Source: Nitrosopumilaceae archaeon
GTDB taxonomy: Archaea > Thermoproteota > Nitrososphaeria > Nitrososphaerales > Nitrosopumilaceae
DNA: 64,000 nt
NCBI GenBank assembly: GCA_005798405.1
Contig: SYJQ01000028.1
Span: 124,001 to 188,000, forward strand
Reading direction: 5' to 3'
Shown: piece after piece, positions 11,863-31,239 of the stretch
How positions within the stretch are numbered: the stretch's first letter is position 1
Layout of the letters: each line of letters opens with the position of its first letter
The notes under the pieces: model-generated
The model's database searches: none
Told to the model about the DNA's origin: nothing
Seen by the model: only the letters and a program-made list of their open reading frames with translations
Program-made: the position numbers and the translations under genes

Positions 11863-12375
11863 TTATTCTATTTCTGCAACTATATCGTTTTTAGCTACAG
11901 TTCCACCAATTTTGATTTTAATAGATTTGATTGAACCATTTTTATGAGATTTAACAGATACTTGCATTTTCATAGATTCTAAAGTACAGATAACATCTCC
12001 TTGTTTCACCGAGTCACCTTCTTGAACAGCGATAGAAACAACTTTACCGGGAATTTGACTTTTTAATGCCAGTTGAGTATCAGTCGAACTGCTACCTCCA
12101 GAATTTTTGAAAACAATTTTATCAAAATTAGTATGCATGTTAAGTGTAATAGGAACATTATCAATGATGAGATTCATTTCATTTGTTGAATTTTCAAGAT
12201 ATTTTGCTCTATGATATTTTTGATCTAATACAAATTCAATTCCTTTAGAATCCATTTTTAGAATTTTTATTTGATGTTTGTCAGAATTAATTTTAATTAC
12301 GTATTCATTGTTACCAAGATTTTCAGTTATTTCTCCATCAAATATTTTTTCAACATCTTTTATTTTATAATCCAT
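11863..12375 (-). CDS. biotin carboxyl carrier protein of acyl-CoA carboxylase
   Basis: Carries the carboxybiotin arm between the carboxylase and transferase subunits. About 170 aa; the C-terminal ~75 residues form the biotinyl domain with the modified Lys in ESMKMQV, a variant of the usual AMKM. The N-terminal half is unrelated to bacterial AccB and probably docks the partners. ATG at 12375 is preferred; a TTG one codon earlier is possible. It is the third gene of the pccB-accC-bccP operon. Confidence 0.9.
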   Translation of the reverse strand: MDYKIKDVEKIFDGEITENLGNNEYVIKINSDKHQIKILKMDSKGIEFVLDQKYHRAKYLENSTNEMNLIIDNVPITLNMHTNFDKIVFKNSGGSSSTDTQLALKSQIPGKVVSIAVQEGDSVKQGDVICTLESMKMQVSVKSHKNGSIKSIKIKIGGTVAKNDIVAEIE

Positions 12376-12381
12376 CAATCA

Positions 12382-13869
12382 TCAATCCAGTTTATTTTTC
12401 CAATTTGAATTATTAGAAGTTGAATTTTGTACTCTACTCTTATAATATTCAGAATAAACAATAGCAGCTGCTAAAGCAGCCTCACTTTTTTCAATTTTTT
12501 CAGTTTTGAGATCTTCTTTTAATCTATCAATGATATTATAACGATTAAGGAAATCGGTAGAAAGATGTCCATTTTTGTATTCATCTGTATTCAAAATTGT
12601 TTTGTAAAGTGGTATTGATGTCTCGACACCTTGAATGTAAAAATCATTTAATGCGTTAAGCATTCTGGTTCTTGACTCCTCAAATGTCTGTCCCCATGTA
12701 CAAAGTTTGGCCATCAAAGAATCATAAAATGCAGATACAGTACATCCAGAATAAAGATAGGTATCACATCTAACACTTGGTCCAGATGGAATAGTAACAT
12801 CAGGTACAGGACCAGTCGAAGGAGCAAAATCCAAGAATGTATCTTCTGCGTTTATTCTGCATTCAATTGCATAGCCATTCATTTTGAGATCTTTTTGTTT
12901 GAATGGAAGGGGTTCACCATTTGCAATATCTATTTGTAGTTTAACGAGGTCAAGTCCCGATACAAGTTCGGTGATTGGATGTTCTACTTGCAATCTAGCA
13001 TTGATTTCTATAAAATAAAATTCACCGTTATCTGCTCGAAGAAATTCAGCAGTTCCAAGATTAGTATAATCAACTGCCTTAGATGCTTTAACAACCAATT
13101 CACCAATTCTGTCTCTTGTTTCTTGATCTACTATAGGAGATGGTGTTTGTTCAATAAGTTTTTGATTACGTCTTTGAATCGAACATTCTCTTTCAAATAT
13201 ATGAACTGCATTACCATGTTTGTCTCTTGCCATTTGATATTCAATATGTCTAGTTTTTTGTAGAAATTTTTCAACAATAATTGCAGATTTCCCAACCGCT
13301 GAAATGGATTCGCTTGTAACTGTTTCAAATCCTTCTCGTAGTTCTTTATCATTATTTACTAATCGAATTCCACGTCCACCGCCACCAAAAACAGATTTTA
13401 GTAGAACTGGGTATGAGATATCATTAGCAATTTTTAATGCATCTTCAACATCTTTTACTAGACCTGGACTTCCTGGCACAGTTGGAACTTTTGCTTTCAA
13501 CATAGCAGATTTACATTGCATTTTATCACCACAAAGATCCATAGATGCAGCACTGGGACCAATAAAATTTATTTTATTTTTTTCACATTTACCTGCAAAG
13601 TCTGAGTTTTCTGAAAGAAAACCATAACCAGGATGTATAGCATCGGCACCAGAAGAAAGTATAGTTTCAATAATTTTTTCTTGATTTAGATAAGATTTTG
13701 CAGGTGCAGCCTCACCAATATGATACGCTTCTGTAGCTTGTTTTACATGTAAAGAATTGTAATCTTCGTCAGAGTACACTGCAACAGTTTTGATTCCAAG
13801 CGCTTTGCATGTTTTAATAACACGTAAAGCGATTTCTCCTCTATTTGCGATAAGAACTTTTTCAATCAT
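12382..13869 (-). CDS. accC: biotin carboxylase subunit of acetyl/propionyl-CoA carboxylase
   Basis: ATP-dependent carboxylation of biotin with bicarbonate; ATP-grasp enzyme of ~495 aa. The N-terminus KVLIANRGEIALRV, the glycine-rich ATP loop KSVFGGGGRGIR and the active-site region EINARLQVEHP are visible. In thaumarchaea this enzyme serves the 3-hydroxypropionate/4-hydroxybutyrate CO2-fixation cycle, carboxylating acetyl-CoA and propionyl-CoA (family knowledge). I chose ATG at 13869, which leaves two residues before the conserved KVLIANRGE; a GTG at 13878 overlaps the pccB stop and is possible. Confidence 0.93.
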   Translation of the reverse strand: MIEKVLIANRGEIALRVIKTCKALGIKTVAVYSDEDYNSLHVKQATEAYHIGEAAPAKSYLNQEKIIETILSSGADAIHPGYGFLSENSDFAGKCEKNKINFIGPSAASMDLCGDKMQCKSAMLKAKVPTVPGSPGLVKDVEDALKIANDISYPVLLKSVFGGGGRGIRLVNNDKELREGFETVTSESISAVGKSAIIVEKFLQKTRHIEYQMARDKHGNAVHIFERECSIQRRNQKLIEQTPSPIVDQETRDRIGELVVKASKAVDYTNLGTAEFLRADNGEFYFIEINARLQVEHPITELVSGLDLVKLQIDIANGEPLPFKQKDLKMNGYAIECRINAEDTFLDFAPSTGPVPDVTIPSGPSVRCDTYLYSGCTVSAFYDSLMAKLCTWGQTFEESRTRMLNALNDFYIQGVETSIPLYKTILNTDEYKNGHLSTDFLNRYNIIDRLKEDLKTEKIEKSEAALAAAIVYSEYYKSRVQNSTSNNSNWKNKLD

Positions 13870-13874
13870 ATTAA

Positions 13875-15422
13875 TCACAAATTGATATTTCCATGTTTTC
13901 TTGGAAGTTGTTTTTCTCTTTTGTTTGCAAGCATTTCTAATGCTTTTATCAACATAGGTCTTGTTTCAGCTGGATCAATTACATTATCAATAGTACCATG
14001 AGATGCAGCAACGTATGGGTTTTCAAATTTTTCTGAAAATTCACTGATTAATTGTTTTTTAAGAGATTCAGGATCATTGGAACTGGATAATTCCTTTCTA
14101 TACATAATTTTGACAGCTGCTTCAGCACCCAATACAGCACATCGTGCAGTTGGCCATGCATAATTTACATCAGTTCTTAGATTCTTACTTCCCATGGCTA
14201 TGTATGCACCGCCATATGCTTTTCCTATTACAAGTGTAATTCTAGGAACAGTAGCCTCACAGTAAGCATAGAGAAGTTTGCTACCATGTCTAATGATGCC
14301 ATTATGCTCTTGATTAGAACCTGGCATATATCCAGGAGTATCTACAAATGTAATGATCGGAATATTGAATGCGTCACAAAATCTAATGAATCTAGCTGCT
14401 TTGTTTGATGAATCAATATCAAGTGCACCGGCAAGATGAAGTGGTTGATTAGCAACAATGCCTACGACTTTGCCGTTTAATCTTCCATAACCTACAACTA
14501 CATTTGGTGCAAACAATTCATGAATCTCAAAAAATTCATGATTATCAACAACAGAGTGAATAATTTCTTTCATGTCGTATGGTTGTAAAGGATTATCAGG
14601 GATGATATTGATTATATTATGATCAAGTCTGTTTGGATCGTCATCAGTTTTTATTTTTGGTGGTTCTTCAGTATTATTTTGTGGAAGAAAAGAGATTAAT
14701 TTTTTTATATAATCCATACATTCGTATTCATTCTTTGCAACAAAATGTGCAACACCACTTTTTATTCCATGTGTCATTGCTCCACCTAAATCATCAAATG
14801 AAATTTCTTCTCCTAAAACAGTCTTTACTACATCAGGGCCAGTTACAAACATGGTTCCTGCTTTATCAACCATAATAACAAAATCAGTCATTGCTGGAGA
14901 ATATACAGAACCTCCAGCTGATGGACCGATACTTGCAGTAATTTGTGGAATAACACCAGAAGCTAATTGATTATGATAAAAAATATCAGCAAATCCATCA
15001 AGACTCATAATCCCTTCTTGAATTCTTGCACCGCCTGAATCCATTATACCAATTATAGGACAGCCTGTTTTGACTGCATGATCCATTAATTTTGTAATTT
15101 TTTTAGCTCCCATTTGACTTAGTGTTCCACCAAGTACAGTGAAGTCATAAGCAAAGACAAAGATTTGTCTACCATTTATGGATCCATAACCACCAACAAC
15201 ACCATCAGTATAGAATTTTTTTTTCTGCATATCATATTCATGATAATGATGAGTTGTAAGTGGATCAATTTCAGTAAAAGTGCCAACATCCAATAAAAGA
15301 TCAATTCTCTCTCTAGCTGTTAACTTACCTTTATCATGCTGATCCTTGATTTTATCTTGTCCTCCACCTTGTAAGGATATTTTATTTCTCTTAGAATATT
15401 CATCAATTTTTTCAAAATGCAT
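13875..15422 (-). CDS. pccB: acyl-CoA carboxylase, carboxyltransferase subunit
   Basis: Transfers CO2 from carboxybiotin to acetyl-CoA or propionyl-CoA, making malonyl-CoA or methylmalonyl-CoA. 515 aa with the tandem crotonase-like halves of the PccB/AccD5 family: the first CoA-binding region includes GGSVYSPAMTDF and the second GGAYIAMGSKNL. It heads the three-gene operon, so carboxyltransferase, carboxylase and carrier are co-transcribed. The order and the absence of fusion resemble other archaeal bifunctional carboxylases. Confidence 0.93.
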   Translation of the reverse strand: MHFEKIDEYSKRNKISLQGGGQDKIKDQHDKGKLTARERIDLLLDVGTFTEIDPLTTHHYHEYDMQKKKFYTDGVVGGYGSINGRQIFVFAYDFTVLGGTLSQMGAKKITKLMDHAVKTGCPIIGIMDSGGARIQEGIMSLDGFADIFYHNQLASGVIPQITASIGPSAGGSVYSPAMTDFVIMVDKAGTMFVTGPDVVKTVLGEEISFDDLGGAMTHGIKSGVAHFVAKNEYECMDYIKKLISFLPQNNTEEPPKIKTDDDPNRLDHNIINIIPDNPLQPYDMKEIIHSVVDNHEFFEIHELFAPNVVVGYGRLNGKVVGIVANQPLHLAGALDIDSSNKAARFIRFCDAFNIPIITFVDTPGYMPGSNQEHNGIIRHGSKLLYAYCEATVPRITLVIGKAYGGAYIAMGSKNLRTDVNYAWPTARCAVLGAEAAVKIMYRKELSSSNDPESLKKQLISEFSEKFENPYVAASHGTIDNVIDPAETRPMLIKALEMLANKREKQLPRKHGNINL

Positions 15423-19117: not shown

Positions 19118-19957
19118 CTATCCGTATGATTCATACTTAATTTCGTAACTTCCATCTTTACGTTTTTCTTCTTTTGTAACAAATCCTTTTGGTCCTAAAT
19201 ATTCAATAACTCCATCAATAGTACCTTGGTATCCGCAAATGTAGACTTTGGTATTTGCAGTTGTAACTGTTTCACCAACCATTTCTTCTAATGGTGAGAC
19301 ACCATTTTTGTTTGGTTTGAAGAAGGATTCAACTCTGCCTACATGTCCTGACCAAGTTCTGTTAAAGAATTCCTTGGGTCTGCTAATAGCTGCCCTATAT
19401 TTGAAATTCCATTGATCTTTTCCTCTCTCAATACTTTCATTCTCCAAGTTTGTTAGCAATTCTTTGTAGCTTAATTCATCAACATAACTTGCACCATGAA
19501 AAACAATGATTTCTCTTTTATCTCCAGTATCGTGTAAATGTTTAGCAAAAGCGATAAATGGTGCAAGACCGGTTCCACCTCCTACACAAACAATTCTTCT
19601 ATTATCAGGTTGACCGTTTGGTAATTTATCATCGATTAGTAAAGCATTACCAGTAGGATCTCCCAAGTATACCTCATCACCAACATTTGCATAAAATAAT
19701 TCAGTTGTAACACGACCGGGCAAAGGCTTTCTAACCCATCTAATTACAAATTCAAAATAATCTCGATTTTCAGGATGTGATGCAATTGAGTATGCTCTTC
19801 GAACAACCTTTTGTTCAGATGGTATTGGTACTCCTATAGTAAGAAATTGACCTGTAGTGTATTTTGGCATACCGTCATTTGGAACTAACCGAATTACAAC
19901 TAGATCTTCTTTAAGTAATTGCATGTAAGTAATTTTTGCCTTATGTTCTACTACCAT
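19118..19957 (-). CDS. FNR-type FAD/NAD(P) oxidoreductase, copy 1
   Basis: 279-aa ferredoxin-NADP reductase-like flavoprotein that probably exchanges electrons between ferredoxin and NAD(P). The FAD motif RRAYSIAS, the NAD(P)-binding GGGTGLAPF and the C-terminal CGYQGTIDGV are present in the expected order. It ends in the same YESYG tail as the paralogue at 30394-31239, with most of the core identical by eye. An 8-bp inverted repeat lies directly upstream of the ATG and may be an operator. The partner ferredoxin is not proven; two zinc-ferredoxins lie at 42.3-43.5 kb. Confidence 0.88.
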   Translation of the reverse strand: MVVEHKAKITYMQLLKEDLVVIRLVPNDGMPKYTTGQFLTIGVPIPSEQKVVRRAYSIASHPENRDYFEFVIRWVRKPLPGRVTTELFYANVGDEVYLGDPTGNALLIDDKLPNGQPDNRRIVCVGGGTGLAPFIAFAKHLHDTGDKREIIVFHGASYVDELSYKELLTNLENESIERGKDQWNFKYRAAISRPKEFFNRTWSGHVGRVESFFKPNKNGVSPLEEMVGETVTTANTKVYICGYQGTIDGVIEYLGPKGFVTKEEKRKDGSYEIKYESYG

Positions 19958-20181: not shown

Positions 20182-20343
20182 ATGGCTAAATTGAAATGTA
20201 GCGATTATGGATTTGAGTGCGATTTTGTAGCCGAAGGTGAAATAGAGCAAGTAATAGAAGAATTTGGAAAACACACAGAAGATGTACATGGGATAGATTA
20301 CTCAAAAGAAGCTCTAATGCAATTTATTCTTAGAAAGAAATAA
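20182..20343 (+). CDS. small DUF1059-type protein
   Basis: A 53-aa protein beginning MAKLKCSDYGFECDFVAEGE. The CxDxGFxCDF core followed by a helix with HTEDVHG matches the small DUF1059 family common in archaea and bacteria, whose function is unknown. A run of G residues (ctggggg) precedes the ATG by one base. It is cytoplasmic, with no membrane segment. It stands alone, between two minus-strand genes. Confidence 0.8.
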   Translation: MAKLKCSDYGFECDFVAEGEIEQVIEEFGKHTEDVHGIDYSKEALMQFILRKK

Positions 20344-20400: not shown

Positions 20401-21477
20401 TTAGATGTAAATTCGTTTCATTGTTTCTGCAAGGATTGGAACTTCTTTTTCGATTATTTTTTCTACAGCAGGAACTATACCAGATCTGGCTTTTACGTTT
20501 TCTTCATATATCTCAGCAATTTGATCTCTAAACAATAATTTAATCCCTGGAAGTGCAGTTATTCCCTCATCGACTGTTCGTGGATCAGATAAATCTAAAA
20601 TTAATGTGCCTTTCTTCTTTTCTTCCATAACCAATTTTATTCTATCAAAAGTGATCAAGAAATAATCAGATGTGGTCGCAACAAAGATAATATCGTATTT
20701 ATCAAATCCAGCCAAAACTTCTTCAAATGCAATTGCTTTTCCACCCAATATTTTAGAAAATCCAGTCGAACGCTCAATAGTTTTACTTGTGACATCAAAT
20801 GTGAATCCTTTTTTATTAAGAGTTTTAGCAACCATAGCTGCAGGTTCGCCTGTACCTATTAACAAAATACGTTTCTTAGCGTCCAAACCTGCTTTTTCAT
20901 CTACAATTTTAACAGAGACATCTCCAAGAGAAATTACATCTTTGCTAATTCCAGTCGTATCTCTGATACGAGTCGCAATTCGTATTACGCTTTCAAATAG
21001 TTTATTCAAAACTACTCCAGACACGTTAATCTGTTTTGCATGAGAAAGGGCTGCCTTAATCTCATTCAATATTTCTTCTTTTCCTACAACAACTGAATCC
21101 AAACCACATGCTAATCTCAAAAGATTAAGATAAACATCTGTACTTTTGTAAACTTCAAGAGTTTGATCAAAGTGATCAATATCAATTTGTTCTAGTTCTG
21201 ATAGAGACTGCCAAGTTTCTTTTATTTGGTTTAAAACAAGAGATTTTCCTTCCGTTGTTCTCCCATCTGGAGTATCTCCCGTTTCCAAGTTACTCACTGT
21301 AAATATTTCAATTCTGCTAGAAGTCTGAATTATAATGCATTCTGCAACACCTGGAATTTTCTTAAATGTTTCACATGCGACTTTCAGATCTTTAAATCTA
21401 AATCGTGATAATGTGTAAAGTGGTACATTTTTAAAAGTAACTCTTGCATTAATTACATCAAAATTAATTTCGTTCAC
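20401..21477 (-). CDS. glutamyl-tRNA reductase-like protein lacking catalytic residues
   Basis: 358-aa member of the HemA (GluTR) family: N-terminal catalytic-type domain, a Rossmann NADPH domain (IGTGEPAAMV near residue 180) and a C-terminal helical part. The active-site motif TCNR reads TSSR (Ser53 in place of the nucleophilic Cys). The conserved HLxRVASGLDS reads NLLRLACGLDS (His to Asn), and LGEPQI reads VGKEEI (Glu to Lys). Family knowledge says Cys and His are needed for reduction of glutamyl-tRNA to glutamate-1-semialdehyde. No other haem gene is adjacent; it follows the Ala-rich gene by 11 bases. It may be a repurposed paralogue or a divergent GluTR. Confidence 0.75.
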   Translation of the reverse strand: MNEINFDVINARVTFKNVPLYTLSRFRFKDLKVACETFKKIPGVAECIIIQTSSRIEIFTVSNLETGDTPDGRTTEGKSLVLNQIKETWQSLSELEQIDIDHFDQTLEVYKSTDVYLNLLRLACGLDSVVVGKEEILNEIKAALSHAKQINVSGVVLNKLFESVIRIATRIRDTTGISKDVISLGDVSVKIVDEKAGLDAKKRILLIGTGEPAAMVAKTLNKKGFTFDVTSKTIERSTGFSKILGGKAIAFEEVLAGFDKYDIIFVATTSDYFLITFDRIKLVMEEKKKGTLILDLSDPRTVDEGITALPGIKLLFRDQIAEIYEENVKARSGIVPAVEKIIEKEVPILAETMKRIYI

Positions 21478-21488
21478 ATCATCACCAT

Positions 21489-22166
21489 TTATTCTCTAAG
21501 TTTATTCCTTCCACCTTTAGCAGTACGGAAAACATTCATACCAATGTAATAATTCTCATAAATTGATTCTAAATATTCAAGTTCTTGTTGTGTTGTGAGT
21601 ATATCCTTTTTAGATGCATGAGGATCATTTTTTAATTTCTTTAATTTTTGTTTGGTTTCTTCTAAAAAGTTTCCTACTCCAGATTCATAATTAGACATAC
21701 CACCAAATTCTGGACTTAGTACATGTTGTGGAATATATTTTGGAGTGTTATCTGTTGGAATTTCCACTTTTCTTGTAAGTTCATCTTGTTCGTCGGATGA
21801 AAGAACAGGTCTTGGAAATCTATCTTTTTTGGCTAAGAAAAATTCAGGCTCTCCCATTTCTCTTCTAAATATTTCTTCACCCTTGCGTTGATTAGTAAAT
21901 GCTGGTGCTTTAGTTGCTGCAGCTTTAACTTCTGCAGCTATTGCTTTGTATTCCTCTTCTGCAGCTGCTTCTGCTACGGCCTTGGCAGCGGCAGCTTTTG
22001 CTAATGCAGCTTCTACTTCAGCTTCTGCCTGAGACACTGCTGCAGCAGCTTTTGCCGCTGCTTCTATTTTTGCTGCGGCAGCTTTTACTACATCTTTTGG
22101 TGTAGATTCGGATGCTGAAATTTCAGATGTTGTCTCTACCTTAGATTCTTGGTTCTCTTCAGACAT
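21489..22166 (-). CDS. Ala/Glu-rich helical protein of unknown function
   Basis: 225 aa in two parts. Residues ~20-95 are extremely rich in Ala, Glu and Lys, predicting one long helix or coiled coil like a spacer. Residues ~95-225 are a normal-composition domain (FRREMGEPEFFL, VEIPTDNTPKYIP, then a coiled-coil-like KQKLKKLKNDP and LEYLESIYENYY). I do not recognise the family. It precedes the HemA-like gene by 11 bases, so the two are probably co-transcribed and may act together. No signal peptide. Confidence 0.75.
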   Translation of the reverse strand: MSEENQESKVETTSEISASESTPKDVVKAAAAKIEAAAKAAAAVSQAEAEVEAALAKAAAAKAVAEAAAEEEYKAIAAEVKAAATKAPAFTNQRKGEEIFRREMGEPEFFLAKKDRFPRPVLSSDEQDELTRKVEIPTDNTPKYIPQHVLSPEFGGMSNYESGVGNFLEETKQKLKKLKNDPHASKKDILTTQQELEYLESIYENYYIGMNVFRTAKGGRNKLRE

Positions 22167-30393: not shown

Positions 30394-31239
30394 ATGGTAG
30401 TAGATAACAAAGCAACTATCACGTATGTACAGTTACTAAAAGAAGATCTTGTAATTATCAGATTAGTACCAAAAGATGGTCCAGTTCCAGAATATCAAGC
30501 GGGTCAGTTTATCACATTAGGATTACCAAATCCTGTAGAAGGTGGAAAAATTGTTAGAAGAGCATATTCAATTGCCTCTCATCCTGAAAACAGAAAATAT
30601 GTTGAGCTTGTGATTAGATGGGTAAGAAAACCACTGCCAGGTAGATTGACCACACAGATATTCAATGCAAAAGAAAATGATGAGATTTTATGGTTAAAAC
30701 CTACAGGTAGAGCACTTTTGATAAATGAGACGCTTCCGAATGGAGAAAAAGATAACAGGAGAATTATTTGTATTGGGGGAGGAACAGGTCTCGCACCGTT
30801 TGTCAGTTTTGCACAACATCTGCATGATACCGGAGATAAGCGAGAAATTATTGTTCTTCATGGTGCAAGTTATGTTGATGAATTAAGTTACAAAGAATTG
30901 CTAACAGATTTAGAAAATGAAAGTAGAGCAAGAGGAAAAGATCAATGGAATTTCAAATACAGAGCAGCTATCAGTAGACCACAGGAATGGTTCAACAGAT
31001 CGTGGTCAGGTCAGGTTGGAAGAGTTGAAACATTTCTTAGACCTAGAGATAATGGAATTTCACCATTAGAAGAGTTGATTGGGGATAAAATCACCAAAGA
31101 AAATACAATGTTTTATGTTTGTGGTTGGCAAGGAACAATTGATGGTGTAATGGATTTCTTAAAACCAAAAGGTTTCGTTACAGAACATGATAAGCGTTCA
31201 GATGGAAGTTTTGAAGTAAAATACGAATCTTACGGATAA
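30394..31239 (+). CDS. FNR-type FAD/NAD(P) oxidoreductase, copy 2
   Basis: 281-aa paralogue of the protein at 19118-19957, with the same motifs: RRAYSIAS for FAD, GGGTGLAPF for NAD(P), CGWQGTIDGV near the end and the YESYG tail. Likely moves electrons between NAD(P) and ferredoxin. Differences concentrate in the region of residues 95-120 (FNAKENDEILWLKPTGR) and 215-240, which may set partner choice. It stands alone between tRNA-Ala and tRNA-Pro and has no copy of the inverted repeat seen upstream of copy 1. Confidence 0.88.
   Translation: MVVDNKATITYVQLLKEDLVIIRLVPKDGPVPEYQAGQFITLGLPNPVEGGKIVRRAYSIASHPENRKYVELVIRWVRKPLPGRLTTQIFNAKENDEILWLKPTGRALLINETLPNGEKDNRRIICIGGGTGLAPFVSFAQHLHDTGDKREIIVLHGASYVDELSYKELLTDLENESRARGKDQWNFKYRAAISRPQEWFNRSWSGQVGRVETFLRPRDNGISPLEELIGDKITKENTMFYVCGWQGTIDGVMDFLKPKGFVTEHDKRSDGSFEVKYESYG

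Follow-up and report, generated by a model that had tools for sequence, protein, structure and literature searches.

A glutamyl-tRNA reductase paralogue without the catalytic cysteine travels with a C2-type protein and a dedicated flavoprotein in Nitrosopumilaceae

Background

The closest described relatives of the protein analyzed here are the glutamyl-tRNA reductases (GluTR, HemA; TIGR01035; structures 1gpj, 4n7r and 5yjl). The nucleophile of the M. kandleri enzyme is Cys48 (PMC3778395). A fold without its catalytic residues next to a retained active sister is also found in the trypanosomal AdoMetDC prozyme and the inactive DHS paralogue; the HemA-like protein resembles these, but its conserved partners are the C2 protein and a flavoprotein. 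C2 itself can be compared with the epsilon subunit of actinobacterial acyl-CoA carboxylases, as it too is small and helical and has its gene next to that of the carboxyltransferase. The same features are shared with haloarchaeal PccX, a small third subunit of acyl-CoA carboxylase. In contrast to epsilon and PccX, however, the C2 core matches no Pfam or PDB family and its association with the carboxylase is known from gene order alone. The flavoprotein of the locus, C1a, and a second one, C1b, match bacterial-type ferredoxin/flavodoxin-NADP+ reductases (2qdx, 1a8p) by sequence; C1a differs from these in that it is a copy specific to its lineage and linked to the HemA-like gene.

The Nitrosopumilaceae rank with the most abundant archaea on Earth, and their carbon and redox metabolism still has unassigned parts. 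A paralogue of GluTR that extends across a clade, lacks catalytic residues and has strict partners offers a compact, testable unit. The window analyzed comprises 64,000 nucleotides of a Nitrosopumilaceae genome. A sequence-only reading of this DNA had pointed out the HemA-like gene; its observation was confirmed as right, general and understated, and the coordinates it gave omit a wider unit with genes on both sides. New is that the gene belongs to a three-gene module with C2-long and C1a. No description of a Cys-less HemA paralogue was found in the literature searched, which consisted mostly of papers available outside subscription.

Active site of the HemA-like protein

The HemA-like protein P0001 (358 aa) is encoded on the minus strand at positions 20401 to 21477 with a GTG start, and its translation is the one given earlier. 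It consists of a GluTR catalytic domain without the Cys, His and Glu residues and of a retained Rossmann domain, whereas the dimerisation domain is missing. Pfam matches were obtained to GlutR_N (99.6 bits) and Shikimate_DH (69.5 bits), but GlutR_dimer was not found by Pfam, and the score of 195 bits against NCBIfam hemA (TIGR01035) lies below the cut-off of 209.6. An AlphaFold2 model had a mean pLDDT of 88, and Foldseek ranked GluTR structures at the top (1gpj, 5che, 4n7r and 5yjl).

At the Cys site P0001 harbors QTSSRIE (Ser53) instead of QTCNRxE, at the His site YLNLLRLACGLDS (Asn118) instead of the His-bearing motif HLxRxASGLxS, and at the Glu site GKEEI (Lys133) instead of GEEQI/GExQI. 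The translation thus bears out the claim that all three catalytic residues are missing. When aligned to 1gpj from M. kandleri, Ser53 corresponds to residue 48, Asn118 to His84 and Lys133 to Glu99. The 1gpj chain reads QTSNR at the place of Cys48; this Ser is presumably engineered.

A search for a second hemA with intact TCNR, which had been proposed as a check, found one elsewhere in the same genome. It encodes 423 aa with QTCNRIE, HHLLKLTSGLDS and GEEQI and scores 341 bits against NCBIfam hemA; by its sequence, the open reading frame immediately before it resembles a precorrin-2 dehydrogenase of the Met8/CysG-B type. An intact copy was also present in the paralogue-bearing genomes examined for canonical hemA, and all canonical HemA sequences inspected, including some of other families, contain the Cys in TCNR.

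Conservation and selection

Conservation was assessed in a sample of 117 distinct relatives of the HemA-like protein. No Cys occurs at the nucleophile position, which is occupied by Ala (86), Ser (23), Thr, Gln or Gly (two each), Asn or Pro (one each), and none of the 117 contains Glu at the Glu position. The His position is more variable, with His in 64, Asn in 45, Arg in five, Pro in two and Ser in one. Loss of Cys and loss of Glu are therefore the only universal losses. Conservation of TSSR and NLLRLACG, another check suggested earlier, did not hold to the letter, as TASR is the commonest form and His is retained in about half of the paralogues, but the missing Cys and Glu did hold in 117 of 117.

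As in GluTR, the N-terminal and Rossmann domains, the overall fold and a set of residues are retained, namely Arg55, Glu57, Ser128, G208-T209-G210, S231 and the PR motif P299-R300; Rossmann position 232 is Arg in 75, Lys in 29 and Met in 11 of the 117 paralogues. Unlike GluTR, the paralogues lack the catalytic Cys and the conserved Glu, have often lost the His, and share D71, R73, H102, D104, Q105 and D271, which are invariant in 117/117 and not conserved in canonical HemA. D71 and R73 are located in an insert missing from canonical copies, H102, D104 and Q105 fall in a DHFDQ-type stretch, and D271 takes the place of a Pro. Further differences concern the gene partners and the dimerisation domain, which about half of the aligned lineages have lost: it is retained in 10 of 22 aligned paralogues, and the other 12 lost it on the branch to Nitrosarchaeum, Nitrosopumilus and Nitrosopelagicus as well as in some other paralogues.

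Pairwise dN/dS within Nitrosarchaeum ranged from 0.065 to 0.118. The paralogue is maintained by purifying selection, and the low dN/dS together with the new invariant residues are signs of a new function and not of decay. The HemA-like protein is no GluTR of the known mechanism and almost certainly no functional GluTR at all.

Distribution and origin

According to the match tables, 107 of the 150 Nitrosopumilaceae genomes sampled carry the paralogue. Its bearers include many ammonia oxidisers of the sea and of fresh water. Named records that contain it belong to Nitrosarchaeum, Nitrosopumilus, 'Nitrosomarinus' and Nitrosopelagicus; those nearest to the window are mainly Nitrosarchaeum, to which the window therefore probably belongs. 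Several genera of the family lack it, and with C2-long as proxy there was no indication of it outside the Nitrosopumilaceae. In a maximum-likelihood tree all paralogues form a single clade with 100/100 support, which lies among the HemA sequences of Nitrosopumilaceae. The HemA-like clade thus arose inside this family by paralogy of GluTR, and the protein is a direct paralogue of Nitrosopumilaceae HemA, although the attachment point of the clade is unsure because of its long stem. The paralogues of lineage g16 group with those of g19 (99/98), whereas the canonical HemA copies of these lineages do not. This grouping is suggestive of a horizontal transfer of the module between the two lineages.

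One record, JAICOU010000003.1, is titled 'Nitrososphaeraceae archaeon SCK_bin.6' and encodes a HemA-like protein 92% identical to P0001; it is probably a misclassified Nitrosarchaeum-like genome.

The partner protein C2

C2-long (225 aa; 21489 to 22166, minus strand) is located upstream of the HemA-like gene at a distance of 11 bp and consists of an Ala-rich helix, an EPEFF motif and a C-terminal helical core of about 75 aa. It immediately precedes the HemA-like gene in all 24 loci where it was called, with gaps of 0 to 19 bp in 22 of them and of -4 and 191 bp in the other two. Long forms were recognized by a profile match from their first positions. By this measure, 106 of the 107 paralogue-bearing genomes encode C2-long, and none of the other 43 does. 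As these genomes are related to each other, the counts lack statistical independence and a Fisher value is no true probability. In the single exception the gene sits at a contig end.

The core, in the C-terminal part of C2 (positions 21489 to 21905 of the window), is common to small stand-alone proteins of ammonia-oxidising archaea. These short C2 forms measure roughly 67 to 190 aa and are encoded by genomes that lack the paralogue, among them genomes from families f2, f3 and f5, which belong to the same order. All 24 long forms contain the EPEF[FW] motif, against 0/24 short forms. Several g16 genomes with the paralogue hold both, the short form at the carboxylase cluster and the long form beside the HemA-like gene.

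No convincing relative of the core was found in Pfam, NCBIfam or PDB. Foldseek comparison of a C2 model (pLDDT 69) with the PDB gave weak helical matches, none at E <= 0.001, and therefore no function was drawn from them. Profile matches to designed coiled coils look compositional and were rejected as relatives.

Carboxylase genes and gene neighborhoods

The window contains the genes of an acyl-CoA carboxylase on the minus strand, which encode the biotin carboxyl carrier protein (11863 to 12378), the biotin carboxylase subunit (12382 to 13878) and the pccB-like carboxyltransferase subunit (13875 to 15422). In 21 of 24 tabulated loci (families f1, f2, f3 and f5), short C2 immediately precedes the carboxyltransferase gene on the same strand. 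In genomes without the paralogue it is typically placed between an RfcL/zinc-protein gene pair and the genes for carboxyltransferase, biotin carboxylase and carrier protein. Where the surroundings change, as in L090 and L098, C2 keeps the carboxyltransferase neighbor while the other side differs; in G189 it adjoins the RfcL/zinc-protein pair and not pccB. C2 does not follow every pccB, since family f8 (G210) has a 63%-identical pccB without a C2 core. The partner had been described earlier as an Ala-rich unknown. It is indeed Ala-rich, but it is not an incidental neighbor, as its C-terminal core is a small protein encoded next to acyl-CoA carboxylase genes in ammonia-oxidising archaea.

The position of the HemA-like gene relative to this cluster varies. 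At six loci (L043, L049, L050, L051, L054 and L069) the pair of C2 and HemA-like genes lies inside the carboxylase cluster, and several genes separate the module from pccB in the paralogue loci of g1 and g11. At L045, L046, L048 and L070 the HemA-like, C2 and FNR genes stay together amid otherwise differing neighbors. In L048 and L070 (g16) the module is flanked on both sides by homologous genes of about 318 aa (cluster C26), as if it had been inserted between tandem copies.

In the loci compared, no tetrapyrrole gene was recognized beside the HemA-like gene. This agrees with the statement that no haem gene is adjacent, and a function in a haem operon was rejected on these grounds. Together with the intact second hemA, the clade-wide Cys-less form and the purifying selection, it supports the earlier suggestion of a repurposed paralogue.

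FNR-type flavoproteins

C1a (279 aa; 19118 to 19957, minus strand) is an FNR-type FAD/NAD(P) oxidoreductase with FAD_binding_6 and NAD_binding_1 domains above the Pfam cut-offs and with PDB matches. C1b, the second oxidoreductase of this type in the window (30394 to 31239, plus strand), falls outside the C1a clade, and copies of its type are spread across ammonia-oxidising archaea. With a single exception, the tested genomes of ammonia oxidisers contain an FNR-type gene, and those with the paralogue contain an additional copy. The C1a clade is well supported (99/99), and its 25 rows all come from paralogue-bearing genomes. This additional copy fits the report that ammonia-oxidising archaea acquired an FNR family in their ancestor and expanded it afterwards (PMC7554672). 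There are two exceptions to the linkage: at L045 (G044, g18) the neighbor of the HemA-like gene is C1b-like rather than C1a, and in G063 the C1a copy is unlinked. The HemA-like gene thus travels with C2-long and a dedicated FNR-type flavoprotein.

Between the HemA-like and FNR genes lies a gene for a DUF1059 protein of 53 aa (20182 to 20343, plus strand), which is found at the same place in several relatives and is easily missed by gene callers.

Proposed function and alternatives

It is highly probable that HemA-like protein, C2-long and C1a form a co-functioning module, i.e. that the products of the three genes work together. Every step of the mechanism beyond this module is one that we infer. 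The retained Rossmann glycines, S231 and PR motif predict continued binding of NAD(P)H by the HemA-like protein. As R55 and S128 are also retained, the old substrate cleft may hold a small carboxylate-bearing ligand, and the new invariant residues of the paralogue point to a changed cleft or interface. The protein would be docked via the N-terminal extension of C2 (EPEFF region), while the C2 core would contact the acyl-CoA (acetyl/propionyl-CoA) carboxylase of the 3HP/4HB CO2-fixation cycle. C1a would act as flavin electron-transfer partner, and the assembly would serve the carboxylase as an accessory or regulatory unit that depends on redox state. Such a redox-linked unit is favored because of the dedicated flavoprotein and the gene order of C2 and carboxylase. 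The tie of the module to the carboxylase is tentative, with a probability somewhat short of even. That its role is regulatory or redox-related rather than the making of a new product is more doubtful. Overall, we tentatively regard the HemA-like protein as a neofunctionalised pseudo-GluTR, which could bind NAD(P)H and be the redox or regulatory component of a complex linked to CO2 fixation by acyl-CoA carboxylation. The finding directs attention to the small C2-type protein beside carboxylase genes. Its core is a candidate small subunit of acyl-CoA carboxylase, a designation that rests on gene neighborhood, as the core has no Pfam, NCBIfam or PDB relative.

The HemA-like protein might instead be a new enzyme that uses NAD(P)H to reduce an acyl-CoA thioester (malonyl-CoA or succinyl-CoA) or some other substrate with a carboxylate, and C1a would supply or balance reducing equivalents. 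An acyl-CoA substrate is already a thioester, and therefore the thioester-making Cys of GluTR would be unneeded. The acyl-thioester reductase fold is kept with G208-T209-G210, S231, P299-R300 and Arg55, the new invariant residues H102, D104, Q105 and D271 are polar, and the gene maps in or close to the cluster for the carboxylase, an enzyme that would produce malonyl-CoA. Furthermore, according to a model paper of 2018, the N. maritimus genes for the reductases of malonyl-CoA, acryloyl-CoA and succinyl-CoA had yet to be identified (PMC6038301). A search of 13 ammonia-oxidiser genomes with PF01118 (ASD family) found at most two strong proteins in each, which fits this reading, but the count is the same with or without the paralogue and thus does not discriminate. 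No obvious extra ASD-type malonyl-CoA reductase was seen among these 13 genomes. However, the 3HP/4HB cycle has been reported for all known ammonia-oxidising archaea (PMC7554672), whereas the paralogue is missing from several Nitrosopumilaceae genera and, by the C2-long proxy, not indicated outside the family. As many relatives that share the cycle lack it, the protein cannot be a general enzyme of this kind. A new reductase is unlikely. Its specific form, in which HemA-like protein, C2-long and flavoprotein constitute an NAD(P)H-dependent acyl-CoA reductase that needs no Cys and is coupled to the acetyl/propionyl-CoA carboxylase, is slightly less likely again; if true, a tRNA-dependent haem enzyme would have become a carbon-fixation enzyme in some marine ammonia-oxidising archaea.

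About as improbable as this coupled form is a role as regulator of canonical GluTR or of tetrapyrrole supply, for example as a catalytically dead, prozyme-like hetero-oligomer partner of HemA. The protein is a close paralogue of HemA, the dimerisation domain is retained in 10/22 aligned members, and dead paralogues that regulate active sisters are a known pattern (PMC5201418). However, the 12 members without this domain include the aligned Nitrosarchaeum, Nitrosopumilus and Nitrosopelagicus proteins, and the neighbors are C2 and FNR genes rather than recognizable tetrapyrrole genes.

It is very improbable that the protein is an active GluTR with Cys47 or Cys124 (the Cys of LACGLDS) as its nucleophile, a reading raised earlier. 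Cys47 is present in 114 of 117 paralogues and Arg55, Glu57, Ser128 and the Rossmann motifs are retained, but Cys47 occurs equally in canonical copies (14/15) and is Val in the remaining three paralogues, Cys124 is found in only 40/117, Glu133 is lost throughout, and the paralogue genomes examined for an intact hemA possess one as well. On this conservation pattern both residues were rejected as alternative nucleophiles.

Gene decay, a mutation confined to one strain or an error of assembly has a negligible probability. Nothing beyond the loss of catalytic residues speaks for it, and it is refuted by the 117 relatives, by the presence of the gene in 107/150 Nitrosopumilaceae genomes with open frames, by a dN/dS of about 0.1 and by the new invariant residues.

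Cys-less members can be a trap for annotation. A g16 paralogue (L047, 7983 to 9242, minus strand) scores 236.5 against NCBIfam hemA, above the equivalog cut-off of 209.6, and automatic annotation would therefore mislabel it as glutamyl-tRNA reductase.
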